The notes under the pieces: generated by a model
The model's input: only the letters and a program-made list of their open reading frames with translations
What the model was told of the DNA's origin: nothing
The model's database searches: none
Assembly: GCA_028280945.1 (NCBI GenBank)
Contig: JANQKV010000013.1
Coordinates: 1 to 64,000, forward strand
DNA from: Opitutaceae bacterium
Lineage (GTDB): Bacteria; Verrucomicrobiota; Verrucomicrobiia; Opitutales; Opitutaceae
Direction of reading: 5' to 3'
Length of the DNA: 64,000 nucleotides
In this document: positions 9,704-54,083 of the stretch, one piece after another
How positions within the stretch are numbered: the stretch's first letter is position 1
How the letters are laid out: the number at the start of each line of letters is the position of its first letter
Program-made: the position numbers and the translations under genes

Positions 9704-9798
9704 GAGAATGCCCTGGACGGGGCCGATGGCCGAAAGGCGCCGGGCGGTTGGCCGGATTTCACCGTAATATTCGCCGCCCTGGGGGTGTATTTTCTTGC

Positions 9799-11196
9799 AT
9801 GCGTTTCCCCCGTTTCACTTTTCCCCCAGTCTTCACCTCGCGCTTTCGGCTGCCGTTGGTCGGATTTACCAGCCTGCTGATCCTGCTGAGTGCTTCCTGC
9901 ACCCGTCATTCGCTCAAGCGCAGCGATGATGCGGTTCTGACCGGATACACGGGACCCACCGTCGTCGGCGTGGATACCCGCACGCTGAATGGCAAAATCA
10001 TGACGGGCTACCAAGGGTGGTTTAATGCCGAGGGGGATGGCGCGGGGTTGGGTTGGACCCACTGGGCTCGGAATCGGCTTGAACCCTTTGGCCCCGGCAA
10101 TGTCACCATCGATTTATGGCCGGACATGACAGAGTATGGCCCCGGCGAGCGTTTTACCACCCAGTTTCGGCATGCCGATGGCCGCCAGGCCGAGGTGTTC
10201 AGTTCCTACAACCGGGAAACCGTGCTGCGGCATTTTGAATGGATGCGCGACTACGGCATCGATGGAGCGTTTGTGCAGCGGTTTGCCCAAGGCACGATGA
10301 GGCTGGATATGCGCCACCACAAAAACGTGGTGCTGTCCCATGCCCGGGAAGGAGCCAACCGCACCGGACGGTCCTATGCCGTCATGTATGATCTGAGTGG
10401 GTTGCCCCGGGGAGGCACTGCCGCGGTGAAAACGGATTGGTTGATGCTGCGGGAGCGCATGCGCATCACCCAGGATCCAGCCTACCAACACCATGAAGGC
10501 CGGCCTCTGGTTGCGGTCTGGGGCATTGGGTTTGCCCCCCGGGCCAAGCCCCGGGCCTACACCATGGAGGAGTGTCATGAATTGGTGGCGTTTCTGAAGG
10601 CGAATGGCTGTTCCGTGATGATCGGGTCTCCCACGGGTTGGCGCACGCTGGACCGCGACGCCGCCCCGGACCCGGCGTTGCACGATCTGTTGAAATCGGC
10701 GGATGTGGTGAGCCCCTGGACGGTGGGGCGCTACAAAAACCCGGCCGAGGTGGACGCCCACGCCGAACGCTATTGGAAGCCCGATCTGGCCTGGTGTGAG
10801 CAAAACCAACTCGATTACCTGCCGGTGGTTTTTCCGGGATTCAGCTGGCACCATTTAAAAGGCGCCACCTTGGGGGCGATCCCGCGATTGCGGGGGAAAT
10901 TCCTGTGGCACCAATTGATGACCGCGCAAATGGTGGGAGCCAACATGGTCTACGTGGCGATGTTCGATGAAGTCGACGAGGGAACGGCGATTTTCAAGTG
11001 CACCAATGACTATCCGTCCGGTGATGGGGTGGAATTCCTCACCTACGAGGGCCTGCCCAGCGACTACTACCTGTATCTGACGGGACAGGCGGGGCGCGTT
11101 TTGCGGGGTGAAATTGAGCCCCGCCCGCTGCCGCCGCTTCGGCCCGGCGACGAGGAGCCGGACCCGGCGGTGGTGATGTCGGCTGATTTGCGTTGA
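9799..11196 (+). CDS. GH71/99-like glycosidase, predicted lipoprotein with intact catalytic Glu pair
   Basis: A 465-residue protein with a long N-terminal signal ending in LILLSASC, a likely lipobox with cysteine 34. The ATG at 9,799 is chosen; an upstream in-frame TTG would add a hydrophilic tail before the signal. The body matches the GH71/99-like family: YQGWFNAEGDG and WTHW at the N-terminal end of the barrel, RHFEWMRDYGIDGAFVQRF, VAVWGIGF, VSPWTVGRY, VFPGFSWHH, and MFDEVDEGTAIFK. The last motif carries two glutamates three residues apart (Glu391 and Glu394), as in GH99 endo-alpha-mannosidases/mannanases. Endo-cleavage of an alpha-mannoside is the reasonable guess, given GH92 nearby. A paralogue at 22,448-23,761 has lost both glutamates. 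It is followed after 279 bp by two sulfatases in the same direction. Confidence 0.82.
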   Translation: MRFPRFTFPPVFTSRFRLPLVGFTSLLILLSASCTRHSLKRSDDAVLTGYTGPTVVGVDTRTLNGKIMTGYQGWFNAEGDGAGLGWTHWARNRLEPFGPGNVTIDLWPDMTEYGPGERFTTQFRHADGRQAEVFSSYNRETVLRHFEWMRDYGIDGAFVQRFAQGTMRLDMRHHKNVVLSHAREGANRTGRSYAVMYDLSGLPRGGTAAVKTDWLMLRERMRITQDPAYQHHEGRPLVAVWGIGFAPRAKPRAYTMEECHELVAFLKANGCSVMIGSPTGWRTLDRDAAPDPALHDLLKSADVVSPWTVGRYKNPAEVDAHAERYWKPDLAWCEQNQLDYLPVVFPGFSWHHLKGATLGAIPRLRGKFLWHQLMTAQMVGANMVYVAMFDEVDEGTAIFKCTNDYPSGDGVEFLTYEGLPSDYYLYLTGQAGRVLRGEIEPRPLPPLRPGDEEPDPAVVMSADLR

Positions 11197-18889: not shown

Positions 18890-20320
18890 TCAGGGCTGCA
18901 TTTTCTGGATCCAGTAGCCGTATTCCGGCCGGGCCATCCAGGCCTCGAGGAAGGGCGCGTAGATGTCCGTTGTGGTCCAATGAACGGGTTCCGGGTCAGG
19001 CCGGGTCAGCCGCCCCTCCTGATAATCGAGCCCGGCCGCGCTGCGGTCCACCGCGGCGCTCCAGGTTTGGAATTCGCCGATGAGTCGCGCGGCCGTGGCG
19101 GGTTCCTCCTCGATCAGGTTGTGTTGCTCCGCGGGATCCCGGTCCAAGTGGTAGAGTTCGAAGACGCCGTTGGCGTAGTCCTGGCTGATCAATTTGTAGT
19201 CGCCTTCGATCAGGGCGCCCCGGCCGATATGGCGGAAGGGGATGCGGTGTGATCGTTTGAAGGGTCTGCCTGCGAGTAAATCGAACAGGCTGATTCCGTC
19301 CTGCGGGTGGGGGGTGGCCTTCGCGGGAAGGTTCACGATATCAGCCAAGGTGGGGTAGATGTCCATGGTGGCCGCGGGTTCGTTCGTGCTGCGACCGGGA
19401 GCAATGACCGCCGGCCATTCAATGATGGCGGGAACCCGAATGCCGCCTTCGTAGAGGTCACCCTTGAATCCGCGCAGTCCCCGGACGGTCTCCGGACCCA
19501 TGGCTTTGAGCCCTCCGTTGTCGCTGCAGAACCAAATCAACGTATTTTGGGCCACGTCCATTTCGCGTAATCCCTTTCTTAGTGCGCCGATGCTGCGGTC
19601 CATGGCGATGATCTCGCCATACTGGTCCCGTTGCTCTTCCGGGCGGTGCGAGAAGGGAACGGCATCCATTTCCGACGCGGCGAAGGGGCTGTGGGGGGTA
19701 CCGAACCAAAGCACCGCCAAAAAGGGTTGGTTCGGGTCCTCGCGTCCGGCGATGAACCGGAGGGCCTCATTGACGGTGACCTCGGAGGAGTCACCTTGAA
19801 AATCCTCCCATTGCCCCATTCGGCTCATCAGGGGATCGAGATCGAAAAAGTTGGAGGTGGTAAGCCAGTGATCGAAGCCAAAGTGCCCGGGATGATAGGG
19901 ATCGTCTGCCAGCAGAGGCACTCCCGGCCCGCGCAAGGCGTTCAGATGCCATTTGCCGAAGTGGGCGGTGGCGTATCCGGCCTGGCCCAAGGCCTGGGCA
20001 AGGGTGTGCTCCTGGCGTCGCAGGGCGTAACCGTGACTGATGGCGCCGGTGCGATCGTTGGACCGGCCCGTGAGCACGCTGGCGCGGGTGGGAGAGCAGA
20101 CCGGTGCGCCGGCATAAAATCGATCCAAACGCAGGCCGGCCCGCGCCATCGCGTCGAGATGGGGGGTATCCAGATCGGGATGGTTGTAATAACCCACCTG
20201 TCCCCAGCCCAGGTCGTCGGCCATTACCAGGATGATGTTGGGGCGGTCTTCCGCCCGGCTTGGCATTGCCAGTCCCAGCAGGGTCGCCCAGAGGCCTAGA
20301 AGGATGCGGTGGCAGGGCAT
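18890..20320 (-). CDS. Secreted S1-family sulfatase in a sigma-FecR operon
   Basis: A 476-residue exported sulfatase. The signal peptide is LLGLWATLLGLAMPSRA. ADDLGWG gives the metal site, and CSPTR has its formylglycine cysteine at residue 75. FGKWHLN, FGTPHSPF, SDNGGLKAMG and GFKGDLYEGGIRVP complete the active site. The C-terminal block LYHLDRDPAEQHNL is usual. Its special feature is position: it starts 12 bp after the stop of the FecR-domain gene (20,333-21,715), which overlaps the sigma factor gene by 4 bp. The sulfatase is therefore the third gene of a sigma-anti-sigma-enzyme operon and is probably autoregulated by that sigma factor. Confidence 0.92.
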   Translation of the reverse strand: MPCHRILLGLWATLLGLAMPSRAEDRPNIILVMADDLGWGQVGYYNHPDLDTPHLDAMARAGLRLDRFYAGAPVCSPTRASVLTGRSNDRTGAISHGYALRRQEHTLAQALGQAGYATAHFGKWHLNALRGPGVPLLADDPYHPGHFGFDHWLTTSNFFDLDPLMSRMGQWEDFQGDSSEVTVNEALRFIAGREDPNQPFLAVLWFGTPHSPFAASEMDAVPFSHRPEEQRDQYGEIIAMDRSIGALRKGLREMDVAQNTLIWFCSDNGGLKAMGPETVRGLRGFKGDLYEGGIRVPAIIEWPAVIAPGRSTNEPAATMDIYPTLADIVNLPAKATPHPQDGISLFDLLAGRPFKRSHRIPFRHIGRGALIEGDYKLISQDYANGVFELYHLDRDPAEQHNLIEEEPATAARLIGEFQTWSAAVDRSAAGLDYQEGRLTRPDPEPVHWTTTDIYAPFLEAWMARPEYGYWIQKMQP

Positions 20321-20332
20321 GGTTGGCCCGGG

Positions 20333-21715
20333 TCAATCTTGGGCCAAAGCCAGCAAATCATCGCCGATTGAATCCAGGGAACGAATGGCGATGCCATACA
20401 TGGCCCGATTCTCATCGGGCGAGGCCTGGTTGATCGATTCGCCCAGCTCGATGGATTCGTTGCCCCGCAGGTCGGCTCTCCAAACCTTGTGATGGACGTA
20501 GAAATTGCCCTGGGGATCCGGCAGAATATCATGGACCACCTCCACCGGTCTCCACGGGCCGGATACCAAGACCTGGCCGGTATCGGTGAACCTCTCGCCC
20601 AGCCATTCGGGGGTTTCGTAGCGCTCGTCGAACATCACGTAGATCGCGGAGGCTTCCTGCACCTTGAGATTGATCGTGAGTTGCTGGCGTCTGCGGTCCT
20701 TGTGGAAAGTTTGGATAAGATCGGCTCCGAGCAGTTCCGGTGGGAAGGCTTGGCCGGTGGCACGCTTCCAACGCACGTTGCGGAAAGTGGTGTAGACACC
20801 CGCTCCCTCGCGCATGCCGCCATTGATAATGCCGTAGTAGCGCAGGGTGTTGTTGACGCCCAGGTTGTCACTGATCTCGAAGTGGCTGGCACGAGAAAAA
20901 CGGGGAGAGTCGGAGTCGGCTTCGTCCGGCAGGTTGATCGACATCAGCCGGGACTCACGGCCGCTGGAGGCCACCTGCACACCTTCACCTTCGATCAGCA
21001 GGCGGGGGCCGGATTCGTTTTCCGAGGCATGCACCTCAACTTCGCCGGAGAAGACGGCTACTTTCGCTTCAAAGTCTTCGCCTACATCCACCCCGAACTG
21101 CGTGCCCAGATCGACGATTTCCGCGTTGGCGGTCACCACGGTAAAGCCTTTGCCAAAGGGGCCGACGTCGACGTTGAGCCGACCGGAATCGAGATGGAAC
21201 CGGGTATTGCTTTCGAAGCGGCCCTTGGCCGGACCATAAAGGTCGAAGATCACCCCGCGCGGCAGTTCCAGGCGAACCCAACCATCCTTCAGTTCAATGT
21301 GTTCCAGTGACACGGTGTCATCGGAGCCAAGCGTCTGGGCCAACGCCTCAATCTGCGCATTGTTGCTGGCAATAATCCGGGTGGGCACCCCGGTGGCGGC
21401 GGGGGCGGGCAGATTAAACCAAGTGACCAGGCCAATGACCACCGCCGCCGCGGCTGCGAGAGCCCAGTGCGGAAACGGGATGACTTTGGTCGCCGGGCGA
21501 GGCGGGGGAACGGGTGCCTGCAGGATTGATTCCGGGAAAAGCGATTCGGAGTAGCTGGCCGTATCCTCCAGAAACACGCAGGTGTTCATATACTCCAGAA
21601 ACTCGGTCCGGAGCTGCTCGTCCTCGAGCAAGCAGTCTTGCAGACGACGAAAATCATCTGCCGAAATCTGTCCCGAGGCGTAGTCGGAGAGGAGTTTTTG
21701 GAACTCGGCTTTCAT
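20333..21715 (-). CDS. FecR-domain anti-sigma/sensor protein with C-terminal beta-rich domain
   Basis: A 460-residue single-pass membrane protein. Residues 1-75 or so are cytoplasmic (LLSDYASGQISADDFRRL) and would bind the sigma factor. A membrane segment (WALAAAAAVVIGLVTWF) lies near residues 84-100. A FecR domain follows at about 130-250, including LPRGVIFDLYGPAKGRFES, GKGFTVVTANAEIVDLGTQFGVDV and VFSGEVEVH. Residues 260-460 form an unrecognised, probably beta-rich periplasmic domain, and no known carbohydrate-binding signature could be assigned. The start overlaps the sigma stop by 4 bp (ATGA), indicating translational coupling. No TonB-dependent transducer is adjacent, unlike classical FecI-FecR-FecA systems, so the C-terminal domain may sense the ligand itself (inference). 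Confidence 0.85.
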   Translation of the reverse strand: MKAEFQKLLSDYASGQISADDFRRLQDCLLEDEQLRTEFLEYMNTCVFLEDTASYSESLFPESILQAPVPPPRPATKVIPFPHWALAAAAAVVIGLVTWFNLPAPAATGVPTRIIASNNAQIEALAQTLGSDDTVSLEHIELKDGWVRLELPRGVIFDLYGPAKGRFESNTRFHLDSGRLNVDVGPFGKGFTVVTANAEIVDLGTQFGVDVGEDFEAKVAVFSGEVEVHASENESGPRLLIEGEGVQVASSGRESRLMSINLPDEADSDSPRFSRASHFEISDNLGVNNTLRYYGIINGGMREGAGVYTTFRNVRWKRATGQAFPPELLGADLIQTFHKDRRRQQLTINLKVQEASAIYVMFDERYETPEWLGERFTDTGQVLVSGPWRPVEVVHDILPDPQGNFYVHHKVWRADLRGNESIELGESINQASPDENRAMYGIAIRSLDSIGDDLLALAQD

Positions 21716-22335
21716 TGGTAAGCCTCCGTGGCCATCGTTCGTTTAACACACTTGAGCAGCGAGACACGAACGCGGTGCAGCCATTGGTAGAATCCGTTCA
21801 GGGTACTGCCGCGGCGAATGGCGATTTCCTGGGGTTTGTTTCGAGCGGAATAGGCTTCCAGTACCAACTTGCGCCGCTCCTCGGGAATTTTCTGCAAGCA
21901 CGACTCGAGCGCCACCATCTGGCGGTCCAGCTGCGGGAATTGGTCGGCTGATTGATGGGCCAGCTTGTCCAACAGTTCCTCGGAGAACACGTGGCGGTCC
22001 CGGTATTTATCCCGGCGCCAACTCAGCACTTCATAACGGGCCACTACCATGGCCCAACGTTTGAAATGAAGTTCGAGTTCTTCCTTCTCTTCGGTTTCCG
22101 CATCATAAATGGGGTGCTTCCGGAGGAAGATATCGAATTTCTGCCAGAGCACAATCGACGTGTTTTGGCAGATCTCGGAGGCATCGTTCTGGGTCGGGAC
22201 CAGCCGACGAATATACGCCCTCAGCGCAGGTTCGCTGGCCGTGAACAGCCGCAGAAAATCGTCATGGTTCCGCGAATGCATGGACACCAGGGGCGATGGT
22301 TCTGAACTGTCGGAGTTGGCACTCACTATCCCCAT
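21712..22335 (-). CDS. ECF-type RNA polymerase sigma factor
   Basis: A 207-residue sigma-70-family factor with regions 2 and 4 only. Region 2 spans about residues 25-110 (FTASEPALRAYIRRL, ASEICQNTSIVLWQKFD, HFKRWAMVVARYEVLSWRRD). Region 4 is near 140-200 (LQKIPEERRKLVLEAYSARN, then WLHRVRVSLLKCV). The style is that of the planctomycete/verrucomicrobial ECF group that pairs with FecR-like proteins. The annotated ATG has GGAG almost touching it, so an internal ATG at the methionine preceding HSRNHDD is an alternative start. It is the first gene of the operon with the FecR protein (4-bp overlap) and a sulfatase. Confidence 0.88.
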   Translation of the reverse strand: MGIVSANSDSSEPSPLVSMHSRNHDDFLRLFTASEPALRAYIRRLVPTQNDASEICQNTSIVLWQKFDIFLRKHPIYDAETEEKEELELHFKRWAMVVARYEVLSWRRDKYRDRHVFSEELLDKLAHQSADQFPQLDRQMVALESCLQKIPEERRKLVLEAYSARNKPQEIAIRRGSTLNGFYQWLHRVRVSLLKCVKRTMATEAYQ

Positions 22336-22447
22336 ACTCCGGGCAACGGGAATCCTTTAGTTAAAAATTGGCCATGCCGGTGTTTTTTGGTCGAGCCAGC
22401 TTGGAGGAAGGCGTCACCCCTGCGGGTAATCGGGCCGCTGGCTTGGC

Positions 22448-23761
22448 TCAGTCGAGCGAAGAATACTGGGTCGCAAATTCCCGAAAACCCGCTCGGCGGA
22501 CGATTTCGTTTTTGATCAACCTGCCTCCCTCCCCGGTCAATTTCAGGTAGTAGTCGGTCGGGATGTTCTCGTAGCTGATGCCGTGGACGCCTTCGAGGTG
22601 CGGAGTGGTTTTGTCGAATTTCAGGATGGCGGTGCCGTTGTTCATGCCGTCGAACGAGGCCACGTAGACCATTTCACTGCCCAGCCGGCGGGCAGCGGTA
22701 AACTGGGCCCACAGCAGCTTGCCATGTTGGCGGGGCACGATGTTCTGCATCTCCCGGTAGTAGGCTCCCCGGCTGAAACCGGGGAAAATCACCGGCAGGT
22801 GGTCAATGCCGCGAGCGTCGCACCAGGCCTTCTCAGCCTTCCAGATATGTCTGCCGTGAATGCGGGCCTCCTTAGGGCTTTGGTAAACGCCCACGGTCCA
22901 TGGGCTTATGACATCCACTTGGGCCAGCAGGTCGAGCAGGGCAGTGTTGAGCTCGCCGTGTTCATTGCGCTTGCGCCATTCGGAGGAGGTGCCGACCAGC
23001 ACGGCACAGCCTTGTTGTTTTAAAAACGAGATGAGCTTCTCACATTCGGTCAGGGTGTAGTGCCGGTCGGCAAAGCCGACGCCCCATACCGCGACCAAGG
23101 GTTTGCCTTCGTGGTGGAGGTAGGTGGCGTTCTCCGTGATCTTTTTGATCTCCGATAGATGCTTCCAGTCGTCGATCAGGTGTTTGACCTCTCCTGCGCA
23201 CATGCCGTTCAGGTCGTAGGCGACGGCGATGCTCCGACCGGCGGCGGCGGCACCATTTTGGGCATTGGCCAGGACGGTGTTGGTGTGGTGGCGGGAGTTG
23301 GCGGAGAACAGGTCCCGCCCGTAGCGTTTGATGAAGGCGCCGTCGATTTGGTAGTCCCGCATCCATTGGAAATGGCGTTTGACCGTTTCCTTGTGCAGCG
23401 AGCTGTAGATTTCCACCGGGGTGCCGTCGGGCCTCAGCAGGTCGGTGGCGAAGCGTTCATCGGGTGCAAATTCGGACAGGTCGGGGAAAAGTTCGACGGA
23501 GATGTTTTCTTCGGCGAGGGGTTCAGCTGGATTCTTCGTCCAGTGGGCCCAGCCTCGGTTGCCCCCGTCGCCATCAAAGTTATACCAGCCGTTGTAGCCC
23601 ACCATCACCTTTCCTCGCAGGGTTGAGGTATCAACCGAGGAGATGAAGGCATCGGTGGAACCGGCGGCGGGCTTGCCCGGGTCCTGGGCTGGGAGGGAGC
23701 CAGCCAACGCGCCGGAGGCGGCCAGCGGGGCGAGGAGTATTTTGAGAGCAGAGGAAGGCAT
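22448..23761 (-). CDS. GH71/99-like protein lacking the catalytic glutamates (probable pseudoenzyme)
   Basis: A 437-residue exported protein (signal LLAPLAASGALAGSLPAQ) that aligns end to end with the GH99-like lipoprotein at 9,799-11,196. Shared blocks include YNGWYNFDGDG, AHW, HFQWMRDYQIDGAFIKRYG, VAVWGVGF, VISPWTVGVY, VIFPGFSRG and MVYVASFDGMNNGTAIL. In the last block the active paralogue has two Glu three residues apart, and this protein has Gly372 and Asn375. The remaining fold blocks and the reading frame are intact, which argues for retained binding rather than decay. It lies 64 bp behind the FecR/LamG gene, so it is the third gene of a sigma-anti-sigma operon. A glycan-binding or sensing role is plausible, as inference. 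Confidence 0.8.
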   Translation of the reverse strand: MPSSALKILLAPLAASGALAGSLPAQDPGKPAAGSTDAFISSVDTSTLRGKVMVGYNGWYNFDGDGGNRGWAHWTKNPAEPLAEENISVELFPDLSEFAPDERFATDLLRPDGTPVEIYSSLHKETVKRHFQWMRDYQIDGAFIKRYGRDLFSANSRHHTNTVLANAQNGAAAAGRSIAVAYDLNGMCAGEVKHLIDDWKHLSEIKKITENATYLHHEGKPLVAVWGVGFADRHYTLTECEKLISFLKQQGCAVLVGTSSEWRKRNEHGELNTALLDLLAQVDVISPWTVGVYQSPKEARIHGRHIWKAEKAWCDARGIDHLPVIFPGFSRGAYYREMQNIVPRQHGKLLWAQFTAARRLGSEMVYVASFDGMNNGTAILKFDKTTPHLEGVHGISYENIPTDYYLKLTGEGGRLIKNEIVRRAGFREFATQYSSLD

Positions 23762-23825
23762 GGGGCGGGAGGTTTGGGGGCTGACGGGTCAGGGGGGGGA
23801 TGACAACGCAGGGTGGTGGCGGGCG

Positions 23826-25403
23826 TTACTTTTTGTTCCGGCGGTTGGGCGGGGTCGTTTGGTTGAGGGCCGTGATCTCCGCCGGCTCCAGTGGAGCATT
23901 GAGCACGGCAAATTCATCGATGCGCCCGTCCCAGAAACGGGAAGTGCCGGGCGCGGGGCCAGCGGAGTCGGGCCGGAGTTCGGCTCCGATGGCCAGCGAC
24001 TGGGTGGTCAGGGGCATCACCCCGGTGCAGGCGGTCCGGGCCACCCGCTCACCACCCCGATAAAGGGCCAGGAAATCACCATCCGCCACCACGGCCACAT
24101 GGTGCCAGGTTCCCAGCGGCAAGGGGGAGGGGTCGTTAAGGCGCACGACTTGCCCCGACAGGTCCAATACCTCGACGGCCAACCCGCCCTGATCACCGAA
24201 GAGCCCCAAACGGAACTGGCCGGGGCCGGCGGGCGTCTGGGTGTGGGCGATCGTGGCCGAGCGAACCCGGGTATTGGCATAAATCCAGGTAGTGAGCGTG
24301 AGCAGGCCCGATTCAGAGGTCGGGCCTTCGGATACCCAGCCGAAGTTCTTCGATTCAGTCCGCAGAGAAGCGCCAAACCGGCCCGGGACCATGGGCGGCA
24401 GGTCCAGGTCGCCTCGAATGATCCGGCCGTGGCGGGAGTGCGTGGAGCGATCCAACAAGGTCAGCCCGTCTTCCGAAATGGCCATGCGGTAGTAGGCCAC
24501 GGGGTCTTTGAGTTTCACCTTTCGGGAATAGGGTAGGGAGGGCTCGTCGAAGCTGCGCAGGAAACGCTCCTGATCGAGTTCAATGCCGGACAGTGAACCG
24601 GAGGCGGCGTCCACGCGGGTGGCTTGGGCCGTGCCCAGCCGCAGGGGTTCGGTGGTGGCCGCCAGGGATTGAACTTCGACCTCTCCTTCGAAGACGTGAA
24701 TCTCGCTGGTCCGGTCCGCCGAGACATCGACCCCAAAATCGGTGCCGTGGTCGACGATTTGAGCATGGGGGGTTTCGACCGTGAAGCCGACCCCCTCCGG
24801 TGGAACCCGGGCGGCGAGTTTCCCCCGGTGCAGTATCAACCGACCCGCTGATACGATTTGGAAGTGGGCGGGACCTTCCATCATGAGAGAGACGTTTTGG
24901 GCCAAGGTCAGGCCGGCGAAACCGCCGGACAGTTCATACTCGCCGGCCCGCAGGGATTCGCCGGGAGACAGGATGATGGAGGTGTTGGACACCGCCAGAC
25001 TGCCTCCGGCATAGCGGTCGACGATTCCGACGGCTCCCCCCGCGTTCCAACGGGCCTCCCTCAGCAGATTGGGCACAAACAACCCGGCGGTTGTGGCGAC
25101 CAGCATCAGGGAGGCGGCCCATGCGAGCGGTTTCCACCACGAGACCGGCAGGGCCGGGATTCTGGCCTCCCCGCGGGAAGCGGGGGAGGGTTCCGTGGGA
25201 AACGCTTCGCCGCCCAATACCCCGAATTCCCAAGCCAACGACGCCTCCATCCGGCAGTGCTCAAGATAGGTCCGCCGGACGGCGGGATCCGTGGCCAGCA
25301 GATGGGCGAGCTGTGCTTGTTGAGCGGGCGAAGCCCCGCCGTCGATCACCTCTCCGATGAGGAGGTCCGCCTCCTCGGGCGACAGGAGGGCTGTCCTCTT
25401 CAT
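23826..25403 (-). CDS. FecR-domain anti-sigma/sensor protein with LamG lectin-like domain
   Basis: A 525-residue single-pass membrane protein. The ATG at 25,403 is chosen because it overlaps the sigma stop by 4 bp; the longer open frame upstream lies inside the sigma gene. Residues 1-80 are cytoplasmic (LLSPEEADLLIGEVIDGG). A membrane span (PLAWAASLMLVATTAGLFV) lies near 90-110. A FecR domain follows at about 125-270 (LTLAQNVSLMMEGPAHFQIV, GVGFTVETPHAQIVDHGTDFGVDV, IHVFEGEVEVQ). The final 220 residues form a LamG/concanavalin-A-like jelly roll (DPVAYYRM, LTLTTWIYANTRV, LGTWHHVAVVADGDFLALYRGG, FWDGRIDEFAVLNAPLEPAEI). LamG domains bind sugars or proteins, so the outer part may read glycan directly. 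Confidence 0.87.
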   Translation of the reverse strand: MKRTALLSPEEADLLIGEVIDGGASPAQQAQLAHLLATDPAVRRTYLEHCRMEASLAWEFGVLGGEAFPTEPSPASRGEARIPALPVSWWKPLAWAASLMLVATTAGLFVPNLLREARWNAGGAVGIVDRYAGGSLAVSNTSIILSPGESLRAGEYELSGGFAGLTLAQNVSLMMEGPAHFQIVSAGRLILHRGKLAARVPPEGVGFTVETPHAQIVDHGTDFGVDVSADRTSEIHVFEGEVEVQSLAATTEPLRLGTAQATRVDAASGSLSGIELDQERFLRSFDEPSLPYSRKVKLKDPVAYYRMAISEDGLTLLDRSTHSRHGRIIRGDLDLPPMVPGRFGASLRTESKNFGWVSEGPTSESGLLTLTTWIYANTRVRSATIAHTQTPAGPGQFRLGLFGDQGGLAVEVLDLSGQVVRLNDPSPLPLGTWHHVAVVADGDFLALYRGGERVARTACTGVMPLTTQSLAIGAELRPDSAGPAPGTSRFWDGRIDEFAVLNAPLEPAEITALNQTTPPNRRNKK

Positions 25404-25921
25404 GAGATGCCCTCCTGCAGGCGAAATTGAACGCACTTGATCAGATTGGACCGGGCCCGAAACAAAGTCTGCTTGATGGCCGGGGCGGCCGCTCCCAGCT
25501 GCCCGGCCAGTTTCCGGATGGAATACCCCTCGGAGTATCGCCGATGCACGATTTCCCGCTGGCGCTCGGGCAATTTCTCCAAGCACGCCTGCAGGGCGGC
25601 TTGTTGCCGTTCCTGCCAGTCGGTGGCGGCAGATGATTCAGCGGCCAGGTTTTCCAGCAGGTTGTCGTCGAAAACGAATTGCTCCAGTTTGCGCCGGCGG
25701 CGGCGGTGGGTCATCACTTGGAAGTAGGCGATTTTCAGCATCCACGCCGCGAAGTTGGAGCCTGGGCGGAATTGATCGGATTTTTCCCACAGGATCAGGT
25801 TGGTCTCCTGCATCACGTCCTGGGCTTGCTGCCGGTCTCCCAACAGGGACAGGGTGTAGGCATACAACCGACTTTGGTGGCTCGTGATGAGCTGGATGAA
25901 CTCAGCGGATGGGGCAGGCAA
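25400..25921 (-). CDS. ECF-type RNA polymerase sigma factor
   Basis: A 173-residue sigma-70-family factor. Region 2 spans about residues 10-75 (RLYAYTLSLLGDRQQAQDVMQETNLILW, FAAWMLKIAYFQVMTHRRRRR). Region 4 is near 110-165 (LPERQREIVHRRYSEGYSIRKLAGQLG, then IKQTLFRARSNLIKCV). It is clearly diverged from the other sigma factor at 21,712-22,335, so the two modules are not a recent duplication. Its stop overlaps the start of the FecR/LamG gene by 4 bp. The upstream 120 bp carry no gene. Confidence 0.92.
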   Translation of the reverse strand: MPAPSAEFIQLITSHQSRLYAYTLSLLGDRQQAQDVMQETNLILWEKSDQFRPGSNFAAWMLKIAYFQVMTHRRRRRKLEQFVFDDNLLENLAAESSAATDWQERQQAALQACLEKLPERQREIVHRRYSEGYSIRKLAGQLGAAAPAIKQTLFRARSNLIKCVQFRLQEGIS

Positions 25922-26044
25922 GGTCCGGGAGGGGGGTAGGGGTTGTTAGGTAATGTCCCCGGCAACGAAAAGGTAACGCGGTATTTGCAATTTTTTTTGA
26001 CGACGGGATGGGTTCGTCGGACCGCGTCGGGTGAAAGGCCATGA

Positions 26045-51254: not shown

Positions 51255-54083
51255 ATGAAAACTCCTTCTTCATTTCTCGCACGCTCACGACGTGCCTTCG
51301 GTTGCCTTTTGGGCGGCCTGTTTGGGATGGTTTCCATCGCGAATGCTGAGTCCCTTTCCGGACAGGTGCGTGATGCCAACAACAACAGTTTCCTGAACGG
51401 TGCGGTCGTGTCCGTCGAAGGCACCGGCCGCACGACCACAACGGACCGGGAGGGTCGTTACCGCATCCGCGATCTTGTTCCCGGCACCTACGAGGTGCGG
51501 GTGAACTACCTGGGTTACGATGCGGTGACCCAGACCGTCACGATTGCGGACGGATCCAATGCGATGTTAAATTTTGCGGCCGGCGCGGAGGTGTTGGAGA
51601 TGTCCGCCTTTGTTGTGGAGGGCCTGCGCGAAGGCCAGGCGCGGGCGCTGCAACAGAAGATGGCGGCGGTCAATGTGATCGACGTCGTGTCGGCGGACTC
51701 GCTCGGCAAACTGCCCGATGGCAATGCGGCCGAGGCACTCCGCCGCGTGCCGGGTATCTCGGTGCAAATCGACCAGGACGAGGGTCGCTACGTGGTGGTG
51801 CGGGGCATCGACTCCTCGCTCAACAACGTTACGCTCAACGGCTTGAGCATCGGCACACCTTCCGAGCAGGGCAACCGCGGCATCGCCCTCGACTCGGTGC
51901 CGGCGGATTTGATCTCCAGCCTTGAGGTGATCAAGGCGGTCACCCCGGACATGGACGGCAACGCGATTGGCGGTTCGGTCAACATCGTGACCCAGAGCGC
52001 TTTTGATCGTCCCGAGGGATTTGCCATCGGCACGGTGGCCGGTTTCTACGACAGCTTCAGCGAGAAGACCACCCCCAACGGCAGCATCTCCGTCGGCCGG
52101 GTGTTGGATTCCGACGGACGCTGGGGCATCGTCGCGGGCGTCAGTTATTCGCTCAAGGACTTCAAGTCGCAGACGATCAACCAACGTGCCTGGGCCCAGC
52201 GGAATGGCTTTTGGCTGCCGCTTCGCCAGCAGCCCTACGACTACGCCATCGAGCGTGAACGCATCGGAGCCAACGTTGCCCTGCAGTTCCGACCGAACCT
52301 GGATCACGAGCTCGCCCTGCGCATCAACCACAACGAGTTCTCCGACAGCGAGGACCGCCAGAGCAACCGCTACGAATACGCCCGCGGCACCCTCAGCAAC
52401 CAGACTGCCACGAGCGGCGAGTACAGCGGCGGCCGCGCCAATCGCCAGTTCCGCGACTACGAGCAGACCGGCACCATCGACGCCATCTCGCTCGAGGGCA
52501 CCCACCGTTTCGCCAACGACTTCGAGTTGGCCTGGCAGGCCGGCATCAGCGAGGGCGAGCGCGATGTGGGCAAACGCAACGACTGGGAGTTCCGCTCCGG
52601 TGGCAGCGCCTTCCCCAACTCCTATGTGATCGGCCCGGATCTCGTCACCATCACGCCGGACGACCCGGCGGCCTACCACGATCCGAGCAACTATCCGCTC
52701 CGCCGCATCCGATTCCGCACCGATATTGAGCAGGAGGATGTTGGATCGTTCCAGGCGGACCTTGAGAAGGCTTTCTCCTTCGCCGGCCGCGAAAGTCGCT
52801 GGAAAATCGGTGGCAAGTTCGTCACCCGCGACAAGGAGGATGACCGTGAGAACCGGAACTATTCCCCGGACAACGGCGGCTTTACGCTCGGCGAGACCGG
52901 GCTGGCCGGACCGGAAATCGAAAACTACTTCGACGGCTTTCTCCGCTACGGGCCGACGCTCGACGTGCCTGCGATCGAGGCCTTCTTTGCTGCCAACCCG
53001 ACTCTCACTGAGTTCGAGCCCCTCGATTCGTTGGAAGATTCCTTGGCGAGCGACTTCGAGGCTTCGGAAGACGTGCTCGCAGGCTACGCCATGGCCGAGC
53101 TGATGGTTGCCGAAAACATCACCATGCTGGCAGGGGTGCGCGTTGAATATACCGACGCCAACTACGCCGCCAACGAGTTGTTCTTCAACGACGGTGACTT
53201 CGAGGGCGAATTTCGCCGTGTGACGGGAAGCTCCGATTACACCAACGTGCTGCCTGGCCTGCATCTGGTGTGGCGTCCGGAAGCCAACCTCGCCGTGCGG
53301 TTCGCCTGGACCAGCACCATCGGCCGTCCCAACTACGCTGACCTCGCCCCGCGTCGCGAACTTGATGCGGTGGAGGACCCGGTGGGTGAATTTGTGGGCG
53401 GCCTGAGCACGGGTAATCCCGAGCTTGATCCCTTCGAGTCGATGAACTTCGACCTGTCGGTGGAATATTACCTGGCCAACGCCGGCATCGTTTCCGCCGG
53501 GGTGTTCCACAAGGAAATCGATAATCCGATCTACAACCGCAGCATCCTGCAGGAGAACGTGACGATTGACGGTCGCTTCTACCGGCAGTTGTCGGTTTCC
53601 ACCCCGTCCAACGCTGACAAGGGCGAGGTCACAGGGGTGGAGCTCAACTACAGCCAGCCCTTCACTTTTCTGCCCACGCCGTTTGATGGCTTGGGCACGA
53701 GCATGAACTTCACCTTCGTCGATTCGTCCGCGACGTTGTTCACGCGTGATGACGAGCTGCCGTTCTTCGGCCAGGCCGATTCCATTGCCAATGTTTCCCT
53801 CTACTACGAGAAATACGGCTGGGAGGCCCGCGTGGGTTATTCGATGACGGACGATTTCCTCCGCAGTGTGGGTGGCTCCGCCGACACCGACACATTTGTG
53901 CGCAAGCGCAACGTGATCGATGCCAAGGTCAGCTACCGCATCAACGAACGCTATCGCATCTTTGCGGAGTTCCTCAATCTCGACAGCGAGCCCCTGCGTG
54001 AGTTCACCGGCGTGCCGGCGCGGGAGAACGATTTTGAGATCTACGATTGGAAGGCGAAGTTCGGCATCACCTTCAACCTCTGA
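51255..54083 (+). CDS. TonB-dependent outer-membrane receptor with carboxypeptidase-like N-terminal domain
   Basis: A 942-residue receptor. A signal peptide (GCLLGGLFGMVSIANA) is followed by a carboxypeptidase-regulatory-like domain (about residues 32-110: LSGQVRDANNNSFLNGAVV, TTTTDREGRYRIRDLVPGTYEV). Then the plug domain starts: VNVIDVVSADSLGKLPDGNAAEALRRVPGISV, VVRGIDSSLNNVTLNGL, and DGNAIGGSVNIVT. The rest is a 22-strand-type barrel ending WKAKFGITFNL. The substrate is not evident. The phosphatase gene downstream overlaps the stop by one base (TGATG), and a BNR protein follows, so a phosphate-containing ligand is possible. A hairpin masks the ribosome-binding site. Confidence 0.93.
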   Translation: MKTPSSFLARSRRAFGCLLGGLFGMVSIANAESLSGQVRDANNNSFLNGAVVSVEGTGRTTTTDREGRYRIRDLVPGTYEVRVNYLGYDAVTQTVTIADGSNAMLNFAAGAEVLEMSAFVVEGLREGQARALQQKMAAVNVIDVVSADSLGKLPDGNAAEALRRVPGISVQIDQDEGRYVVVRGIDSSLNNVTLNGLSIGTPSEQGNRGIALDSVPADLISSLEVIKAVTPDMDGNAIGGSVNIVTQSAFDRPEGFAIGTVAGFYDSFSEKTTPNGSISVGRVLDSDGRWGIVAGVSYSLKDFKSQTINQRAWAQRNGFWLPLRQQPYDYAIERERIGANVALQFRPNLDHELALRINHNEFSDSEDRQSNRYEYARGTLSNQTATSGEYSGGRANRQFRDYEQTGTIDAISLEGTHRFANDFELAWQAGISEGERDVGKRNDWEFRSGGSAFPNSYVIGPDLVTITPDDPAAYHDPSNYPLRRIRFRTDIEQEDVGSFQADLEKAFSFAGRESRWKIGGKFVTRDKEDDRENRNYSPDNGGFTLGETGLAGPEIENYFDGFLRYGPTLDVPAIEAFFAANPTLTEFEPLDSLEDSLASDFEASEDVLAGYAMAELMVAENITMLAGVRVEYTDANYAANELFFNDGDFEGEFRRVTGSSDYTNVLPGLHLVWRPEANLAVRFAWTSTIGRPNYADLAPRRELDAVEDPVGEFVGGLSTGNPELDPFESMNFDLSVEYYLANAGIVSAGVFHKEIDNPIYNRSILQENVTIDGRFYRQLSVSTPSNADKGEVTGVELNYSQPFTFLPTPFDGLGTSMNFTFVDSSATLFTRDDELPFFGQADSIANVSLYYEKYGWEARVGYSMTDDFLRSVGGSADTDTFVRKRNVIDAKVSYRINERYRIFAEFLNLDSEPLREFTGVPARENDFEIYDWKAKFGITFNL

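Follow-up and report, generated by a model that had tools for sequence, protein, structure and literature searches.

The stretch analysed here, called the window below, comprises the first 64,000 nucleotides of contig JANQKV010000013.1 of an Opitutaceae bacterium (GenBank assembly GCA_028280945.1). At positions 18,890-25,921 it carries six genes, all on the minus strand, for two extracytoplasmic function (ECF) sigma factors, two FecR-type anti-sigma factors, a sulfatase, and a protein resembling glycoside hydrolase (GH) family 99. Judged from the gene order in related genomes, the conserved unit at this locus is a module in which a GH99-like protein without catalytic glutamates is encoded together with the second sigma factor (sigma-2) and its FecR protein (FecR2), and which is extended by a sulfatase in two of four genomes. 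We give an even chance to the proposal that two sigma/anti-sigma sensing modules lie side by side at the locus and evolve separately; they would operate independently of a TonB receptor within a sulfated-glycan cluster, and the second would set sigma-2 free upon sensing glycan fragments. Verrucomicrobia possess very many enzymes for sulfated glycans, but how they recognise the glycan at hand has apparently received little attention. If the proposal is true, it would define a sensor, composed of anti-sigma factors with enzyme-type sugar modules and of a glycosidase fold that is free of catalytic residues and occurs exclusively next to one of these factors. The cell may then use the GH99-like protein to sense a sugar polymer instead of digesting it.

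Two sigma/FecR modules and their boundary

The genes were found where a preliminary description of this DNA had placed them:

25400..25921, minus strand: SIG1, ECF sigma factor of 173 amino acids with a TTG start; TIGR02989 164.0 bits, Sigma70_r2 and r4_2 over cut-off
23826..25403, minus strand: FEC1, FecR-type anti-sigma factor with one hydrophobic segment (93-111), a FecR domain and a C-terminal LamG domain (365-510)
22448..23761, minus strand: GH99-like protein with a signal-peptide-like N-terminus (judged by eye); GH99 31.7 bits, FDGMNNGT at residues 370-377
21712..22335, minus strand: SIG2, ECF sigma factor of 207 amino acids; TIGR02989 143.5 bits, Pfam region 4 at 17 bits, below cut-off
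20333..21715, minus strand: FEC2, FecR-type anti-sigma factor with a hydrophobic segment (84-102), a FecR domain and a C-terminal domain (about 300-445)
18890..20320, minus strand: sulfatase; Pfam 176.6 bits, intact CSPTR at residue 75

As had also been described, both sigma/FecR junctions are ATGA overlaps, and each FecR gene is followed on the same strand by a gene of catabolic type, i.e., FEC2 by the sulfatase gene after 12 bp and FEC1 by the GH99-like gene after 64 bp. The latter is separated from SIG2 by 112 bp. The two sigma factors are indeed clearly diverged, with 29% identity, and FEC1 and FEC2 likewise share 29% over 266 aligned columns. Among the 32 matches to TIGR02989 in the genome at E<=0.001, only SIG1 and SIG2 pass the curated cut-off of 124.55 bits.

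Close relatives of FEC2 (49-55% identity) were found in three of the 251 other genomes of the family, i.e., in the Opitutaceae metagenome-assembled genome (MAG) M30B9 (G090), in Pelagicoccus mobilis KCTC 13126 (G127) and in an uncultured Verrucomicrobia MAG (G128); four more family genomes contain distant full-length relatives (34-36%). SIG2 is 71, 62, and 58% identical to its counterparts in M30B9, P. mobilis and G128, respectively, whilst the homologues of SIG1 and FEC1 in P. mobilis show 64 and 46% identity. In the four genomes with a close FEC2, out of 252 searched, the ATGA overlap is always present, and the order GH99-like/SIG2/FEC2 is found in three of them, with 112, 142, and 173 bp between the first two genes. 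In G128, SIG2 and FEC2 occur without a GH99-like gene, and the gene behind them is of the DUF6797/cytochrome type. A search of relatives for the gene orders had been proposed with the preliminary description, and it did recover the FEC2-sulfatase pair in P. mobilis, where the spacing is 5 bp and the sulfatase is 70% identical to that of the window. M30B9 has no sulfatase gene behind FEC2.

SIG1/FEC1 was not found in M30B9 (91% complete), where the sole match to TIGR02989 at E<=1e-35 is SIG2 and where no separate search for FEC1 was made. In P. mobilis, the pair is located about 6 kb from the sigma-2 module and precedes a different sulfatase gene (22% identity). Since the GH99-like gene adjoins SIG2 in both genomes while SIG1/FEC1 is either not found or apart, it belongs with sigma-2, and its position behind FecR1 in the window is best taken to mark the place where two modules meet. 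Thus, a unit of sigma-1, FecR1 and GH99, as originally proposed, is not supported.

In a census of 200 genomes of the family, 124 sigma genes from 49 genomes exceeded the TIGR02989 cut-off; at most 111 of these were used, i.e., 110 found by a simple gene caller and SIG1 of the window, added by hand. A second gene on the same strand follows 107 of the 111, and as the gap is exactly -4 in 81 of these 107 pairs, the overlap of sigma and FecR genes exceeds chance. LamG was detected in 41 of the 107 second genes with a profile grown from FEC1. The next gene downstream was classified in 92 cases and is of the PSCyt/PSD1 type in 23, of the TonB-receptor type in 16, a sulfatase in eight, an FAD oxidoreductase in six, and DUF1501 in four, the remainder forming small groups (the labels come from Pfam for 19 genes, three of them without a family, for one fusion and for the two genes of the window, and from clustering for the others). 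A GH99-like gene in this position occurs in the window only. In a locus designated L246 (2925-6461, minus strand), as in L256, L258, L254, and L253, the TIGR02989 sigma gene precedes a gene for a fusion of a FecR-like anti-sigma N-terminus with PSCyt1-PSCyt2-PSD1, and DUF1501 follows; the domains were checked in L246 only, where the N-terminus was assigned as anti-sigma from its position and sequence similarity, without a Pfam match.

The sulfatase-rich genome might by chance place sigma/FecR pairs beside sulfatase and GH genes to which they have no functional link. It contains 120 sulfatase-domain matches (some of them fragments of one gene), ten of which lie in the window. Moreover, among genes of at least 150 amino acids in the family genomes, sulfatases are found behind FecR in 8 of 85 cases, as compared with 44 of the 391 other genes called in the same stretches (odds ratio 0.82, p 0.7). 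An enrichment was therefore not found, and sigma/FecR/sulfatase as a general gene order is not supported. However, the FEC2-sulfatase pair is kept between two genera at a distance of 5-12 bp and with 70% identity, and GH99-like, SIG2 and FEC2 have stayed together in three genomes. A chance neighbourhood is thus considered improbable. The preliminary description remains supported as regards the divergence of the two sigma/FecR modules, the lack of a neighbouring TonB transducer and the catabolic-type genes that follow on the same strand, whereas the module boundaries, the role of the enzyme and the generality of the arrangement need revision.

A GH99-like protein without catalytic glutamates

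The C-terminal part of the GH99-like protein aligns with the GH99 enzymes 4acy, 6zdc, and 4ad1, the family being that of endo-α-mannosidases and mannanases. Its score against PF16317 is 31.7 bits, below the gathering threshold of 33. In GH99, an EW[H/G]E motif carries the two catalytic glutamates, which are E404 and E407 in human MANEA (PMC11025385). In a profile alignment, FDGMNNGT of the window protein falls onto FNEWHEGT of the solved enzymes, and both glutamates are gone, being replaced by Gly and Asn, which argues against the GH99-type enzyme that the preliminary description had supposed. A paralogue that has retained them, and which also scores below the threshold (28.8 bits), is encoded elsewhere in the window:

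9748-11196, plus strand: second GH99-like gene (FDEVDEGT, both glutamates kept), amid sulfatase genes

In the genomes searched, the loss is tied to sigma-2. In 200 of the 252 family genomes, 46 GH99-like rows were found, and the motif was read in 32 of them. FDG[ML][NH]NGT is present in the three proteins linked to sigma-2, and both glutamates are present in all 29 others read, including the window paralogue. When searched as an exact DNA pattern, which would miss other variants without glutamates, the motif was found in 3 of the 252 genomes of the family, in every case immediately 5' of SIG2, and in 2 of 372 genomes of the order (a sample overlapping the family), which belong to those three. 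In a tree of 31 rows, one of which duplicates the window gene and which include 27 of the 29 glutamate-keeping proteins, the three group together as a single clade (support 100/100) whose stem is long. An alignment (A4) contains 144 positions that are invariant in nine glutamate-keeping rows, and as 86 of these are kept in all three proteins without glutamates, the GH99 fold is probably retained. It can be envisaged, although we advance this tentatively, that the protein serves solely as a glycan-binding co-sensor in the periplasm, i.e., as a pseudo-glycosidase derived from a mannan-degrading enzyme, which together with FecR2 and its GH2-type ectodomain would switch sigma-2 without a TonB transducer.

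Alternatively, the locus could be an ordinary regulated catabolic operon, in which the GH99-like protein would still be an enzyme by means of other residues, as GH195-type mannanases may be, and would digest, together with the sulfatase, the glycan that is reported by the FecR proteins. In favour of this reading, a GH99-related marine protein without catalytic machinery, reportedly solved by Robb in 2017, is cited for one sulfated-mannan-type locus (PMC13063451). The surroundings are catabolic. They comprise, besides the second GH99-like gene and the ten sulfatase-domain matches, genes for a GH92 protein, a 3-keto-disaccharide hydrolase and a BT_2158-type glycoside dehydrogenase. The sulfatase behind FEC2 contains the formylglycine motif of sulfatases, C-x-P-x-R, and finds its best match among solved structures in the κ-carrageenan sulfatase S1_16 (9fo1). 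Marine Bacteroidota are described to digest sulfated diatom α-mannan with GH92, two sulfatases and the GH99-related GH195 (PMC13063451). As GH92, sulfatase and GH99-type genes are all present at the locus, sulfated α-mannan would, going by the names of the enzyme families, be the first candidate substrate. Against a purely catabolic role, the motif without glutamates is found, in the genomes searched, solely upstream of SIG2, and a glutamate-keeping paralogue is present in the same window. An ordinary catabolic operon is, in our opinion, rather unlikely.

FecR ectodomains and the proposed route of the signal

Both FecR proteins contain the FecR domain PF04773 (33.3 and 30.6 bits, cut-off 24), and in hydropathy plots each shows a single hydrophobic segment. 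Their N-termini score below cut-off against known families, with 26.8 bits for FEC2 against NF052375 (cut-off 100) and 15.8 bits for FEC1 against NF047528 (cut-off 200), and the match of the FecR N-terminus to RsiW is insignificant (E 1.7). The C-terminus of FEC1 is a LamG domain according to Pfam. In a survey of freshwater Verrucomicrobia, the LamG family pfam13385 was ranked among carbohydrate-binding modules and reported near sulfatase genes (PMC5615132). The C-terminal domain of FEC2 has no Pfam family and no direct match by sequence in the PDB. However, from about residue 300 onward, FEC2 matches three GH2-type proteins of relatives at their C-terminal end (GH2 domains were confirmed with Pfam in one of the three), with an hhalign probability of 96% and an E-value of 2.5e-9 for one pair with shallow alignments. 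Since this end can in turn be matched to a GH2 enzyme of known structure (6hpd, residues 849-987; E 1.1e-18), the GH2-type proteins bridge the FEC2 domain to a known structure. The same type of domain is present on seven FecR proteins of the census. Both ectodomains are thus of types that may bind sugars.

The absence of a TonB-dependent transducer, noted before, was confirmed. No TonB receptor gene adjoins either sigma/FecR pair, and the single Plug match of the contig is located at 51663-51974, about 26 kb away. In classical cell-surface signalling, a transducer encoded elsewhere could still signal to FecR1 or FecR2. The genome does offer 62 Plug-domain matches along with eight FecR matches, but only two STN domains over cut-off, both on other contigs. 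By comparison of positions, four of the eight FecR matches have a Plug match within about 1.5 kb 3' on the same strand (contigs C13, C19, C37, and C53) and can serve as internal controls. The open frames of these four receptor-linked FecRs encode 335-387 residues, as against 406-603 for the other four. A similar contrast was seen in the census, where 13 of the 16 FecRs with a TonB-receptor-type gene behind them are short (<=350 amino acids) and 48 of the 61 without one are long (Fisher p 1.7e-5, with rows from related genomes that are not independent). This comparison excluded seven truncated, five <300 amino acids, four fused and 14 with an unknown downstream gene. The three long FecRs that do precede a TonB-receptor-type gene, which would suit such signalling, all come from one genome (G054). 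Signalling by such a transducer thus appears very improbable. The contrast in length could offer a rule for separating self-sensing from receptor-driven FecR systems.

For the preferred reading of two TonB-independent sensing modules, the following sequence of events can be proposed. Each FecR-type protein would span the membrane once, with its N-terminus in the cytoplasm, where it would hold its sigma factor, and with the FecR domain and the ligand-binding-type C-terminal domain in the periplasm. A glycan fragment would bind to the ectodomain of FecR2, to the exported, presumably non-catalytic GH99 fold, or to both. FecR2 would then be cleaved or changed in shape, and sigma-2 would be released and transcribe its own module, the genes of which would be transcribed together, and, probably, further cluster genes as well.

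Several observations weigh against this reading. Close FEC2 relatives are confined to 4 of the 252 family genomes, and the genome of G128 contains no GH99-like match although SIG2 and FEC2 are present. Sulfatase genes are no commoner behind FecR genes than among their neighbours, and the 112-173 bp between the GH99-like gene and SIG2 leave room for a separate promoter. In the literature found, no sugar-binding role is described for the domain appended to GH2 proteins. As to the GH99-like protein, 26 of the 144 invariant positions of alignment A4 are changed in all three proteins without glutamates, so that the changes exceed the catalytic pair. Furthermore, GH195, a distant relative of GH99, is reported to be an active mannanase (PMC13063451), and loss of the GH99 glutamates therefore need not abolish all activity.

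Candidate promoters and comparison with known systems

One putative promoter element was noted upstream of SIG1, and similar elements are present 5' of the SIG1 homologues in P. mobilis and in another genome (G167):

25968..25978, minus strand: CGTTACCTTTT, candidate sigma-dependent promoter element, about 50 bp 5' of SIG1

The corresponding pattern CGTTACYTTTT occurs at just six sites in the genome, which is about the chance level as estimated by hand, and in mixed contexts. No regulon can therefore be read from it, and its use for predicting one was rejected. The gap between the GH99-like gene and SIG2 (window 22336-22447, minus strand) contains a CTAAAG element, which is also found in the corresponding loci of M30B9 (L099) and P. 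mobilis (L101). It is possibly part of a sigma-2 promoter, but with three sequences only, this is not claimed. In the 200 bp 5' of the census sigma genes, TTGTCCAAA recurs with GGTAAC or GTAATAG about 17 bp further on (spacing judged by eye), and a second recurrent element is GTTAACCTTTT. Of 108 upstream stretches, 17 contain TGTCCAA and 8 contain TAACCTTT, whereas random stretches taken from these loci lead one to expect 1.1 and 0.2, respectively. Possibly, these elements represent autoregulated ECF promoters.

Terminators between the FecR and enzyme genes would have spoken against joint expression. None was detected on the minus strand at the locus, but the scan is weak because the total of sites found was lower than in shuffled sequences. 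Counts in the promoter and terminator scans were near or below those in shuffles, except for the terminator-like sites of L265 (11 vs. 5.9, sd 2.9), none of which is inside the GH99/SIG2 gap. These scans were not taken as proof of a single transcript.

In the open-licence literature, to which the search was directed, no such sigma/FecR system was found described for Verrucomicrobia or Planctomycetes. As far as our searches show, the novel element is a separate, catalytically depleted GH99 fold that is tied to one sigma/FecR pair. Both sigma factors conform to the Rhodopirellula/Verrucomicrobium type of TIGR02989 in passing its cut-off and in the ATGA overlap, which is the rule in this family, but the most frequent downstream gene in the family is of the PSCyt/PSD1 type, followed by the TonB-receptor type. 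With FecI/FecR/FecA signalling, the locus shares an ECF sigma factor and a membrane FecR protein, whereas it has no adjoining FecA-type transducer and its FecR proteins carry additional C-terminal domains. The LIC_12757/LIC_12756 pair of Leptospira also combines an ECF sigma factor with a FecR-like regulator in the absence of a known transducer with a signalling extension; the available part of that report describes no enzyme-type neighbours (PMC12155086). In RsiV/sigma-V of Bacillus subtilis, the anti-sigma factor is itself the receptor of a ligand, as is proposed here, but the ligand is lysozyme (PMC4183432).

The nearest functional parallel is sigma-I/RsgI of Clostridium thermocellum, in which a membrane anti-sigma factor is encoded in an operon with its sigma factor and exposes a sugar-binding or GH-type C-terminal ectodomain (PMC4711584, PMC6056542). 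The GH10 domain of RsgI6 is reported to have very low activity and still to bind polysaccharide (PMC4711584). The sigma and anti-sigma families are different, however, and in the window the GH-type part is encoded as a protein of its own. Since a Pfam scan (E<=0.01) detected no RsgI domain in FEC1 or FEC2 and no TonB transducer with an STN domain adjoins them, the locus is a member of neither sigma-I/RsgI nor FecIRA. By analogy, it may nevertheless work like sigma-I/RsgI, with the glycosidase fold placed beside the anti-sigma factor rather than on it.

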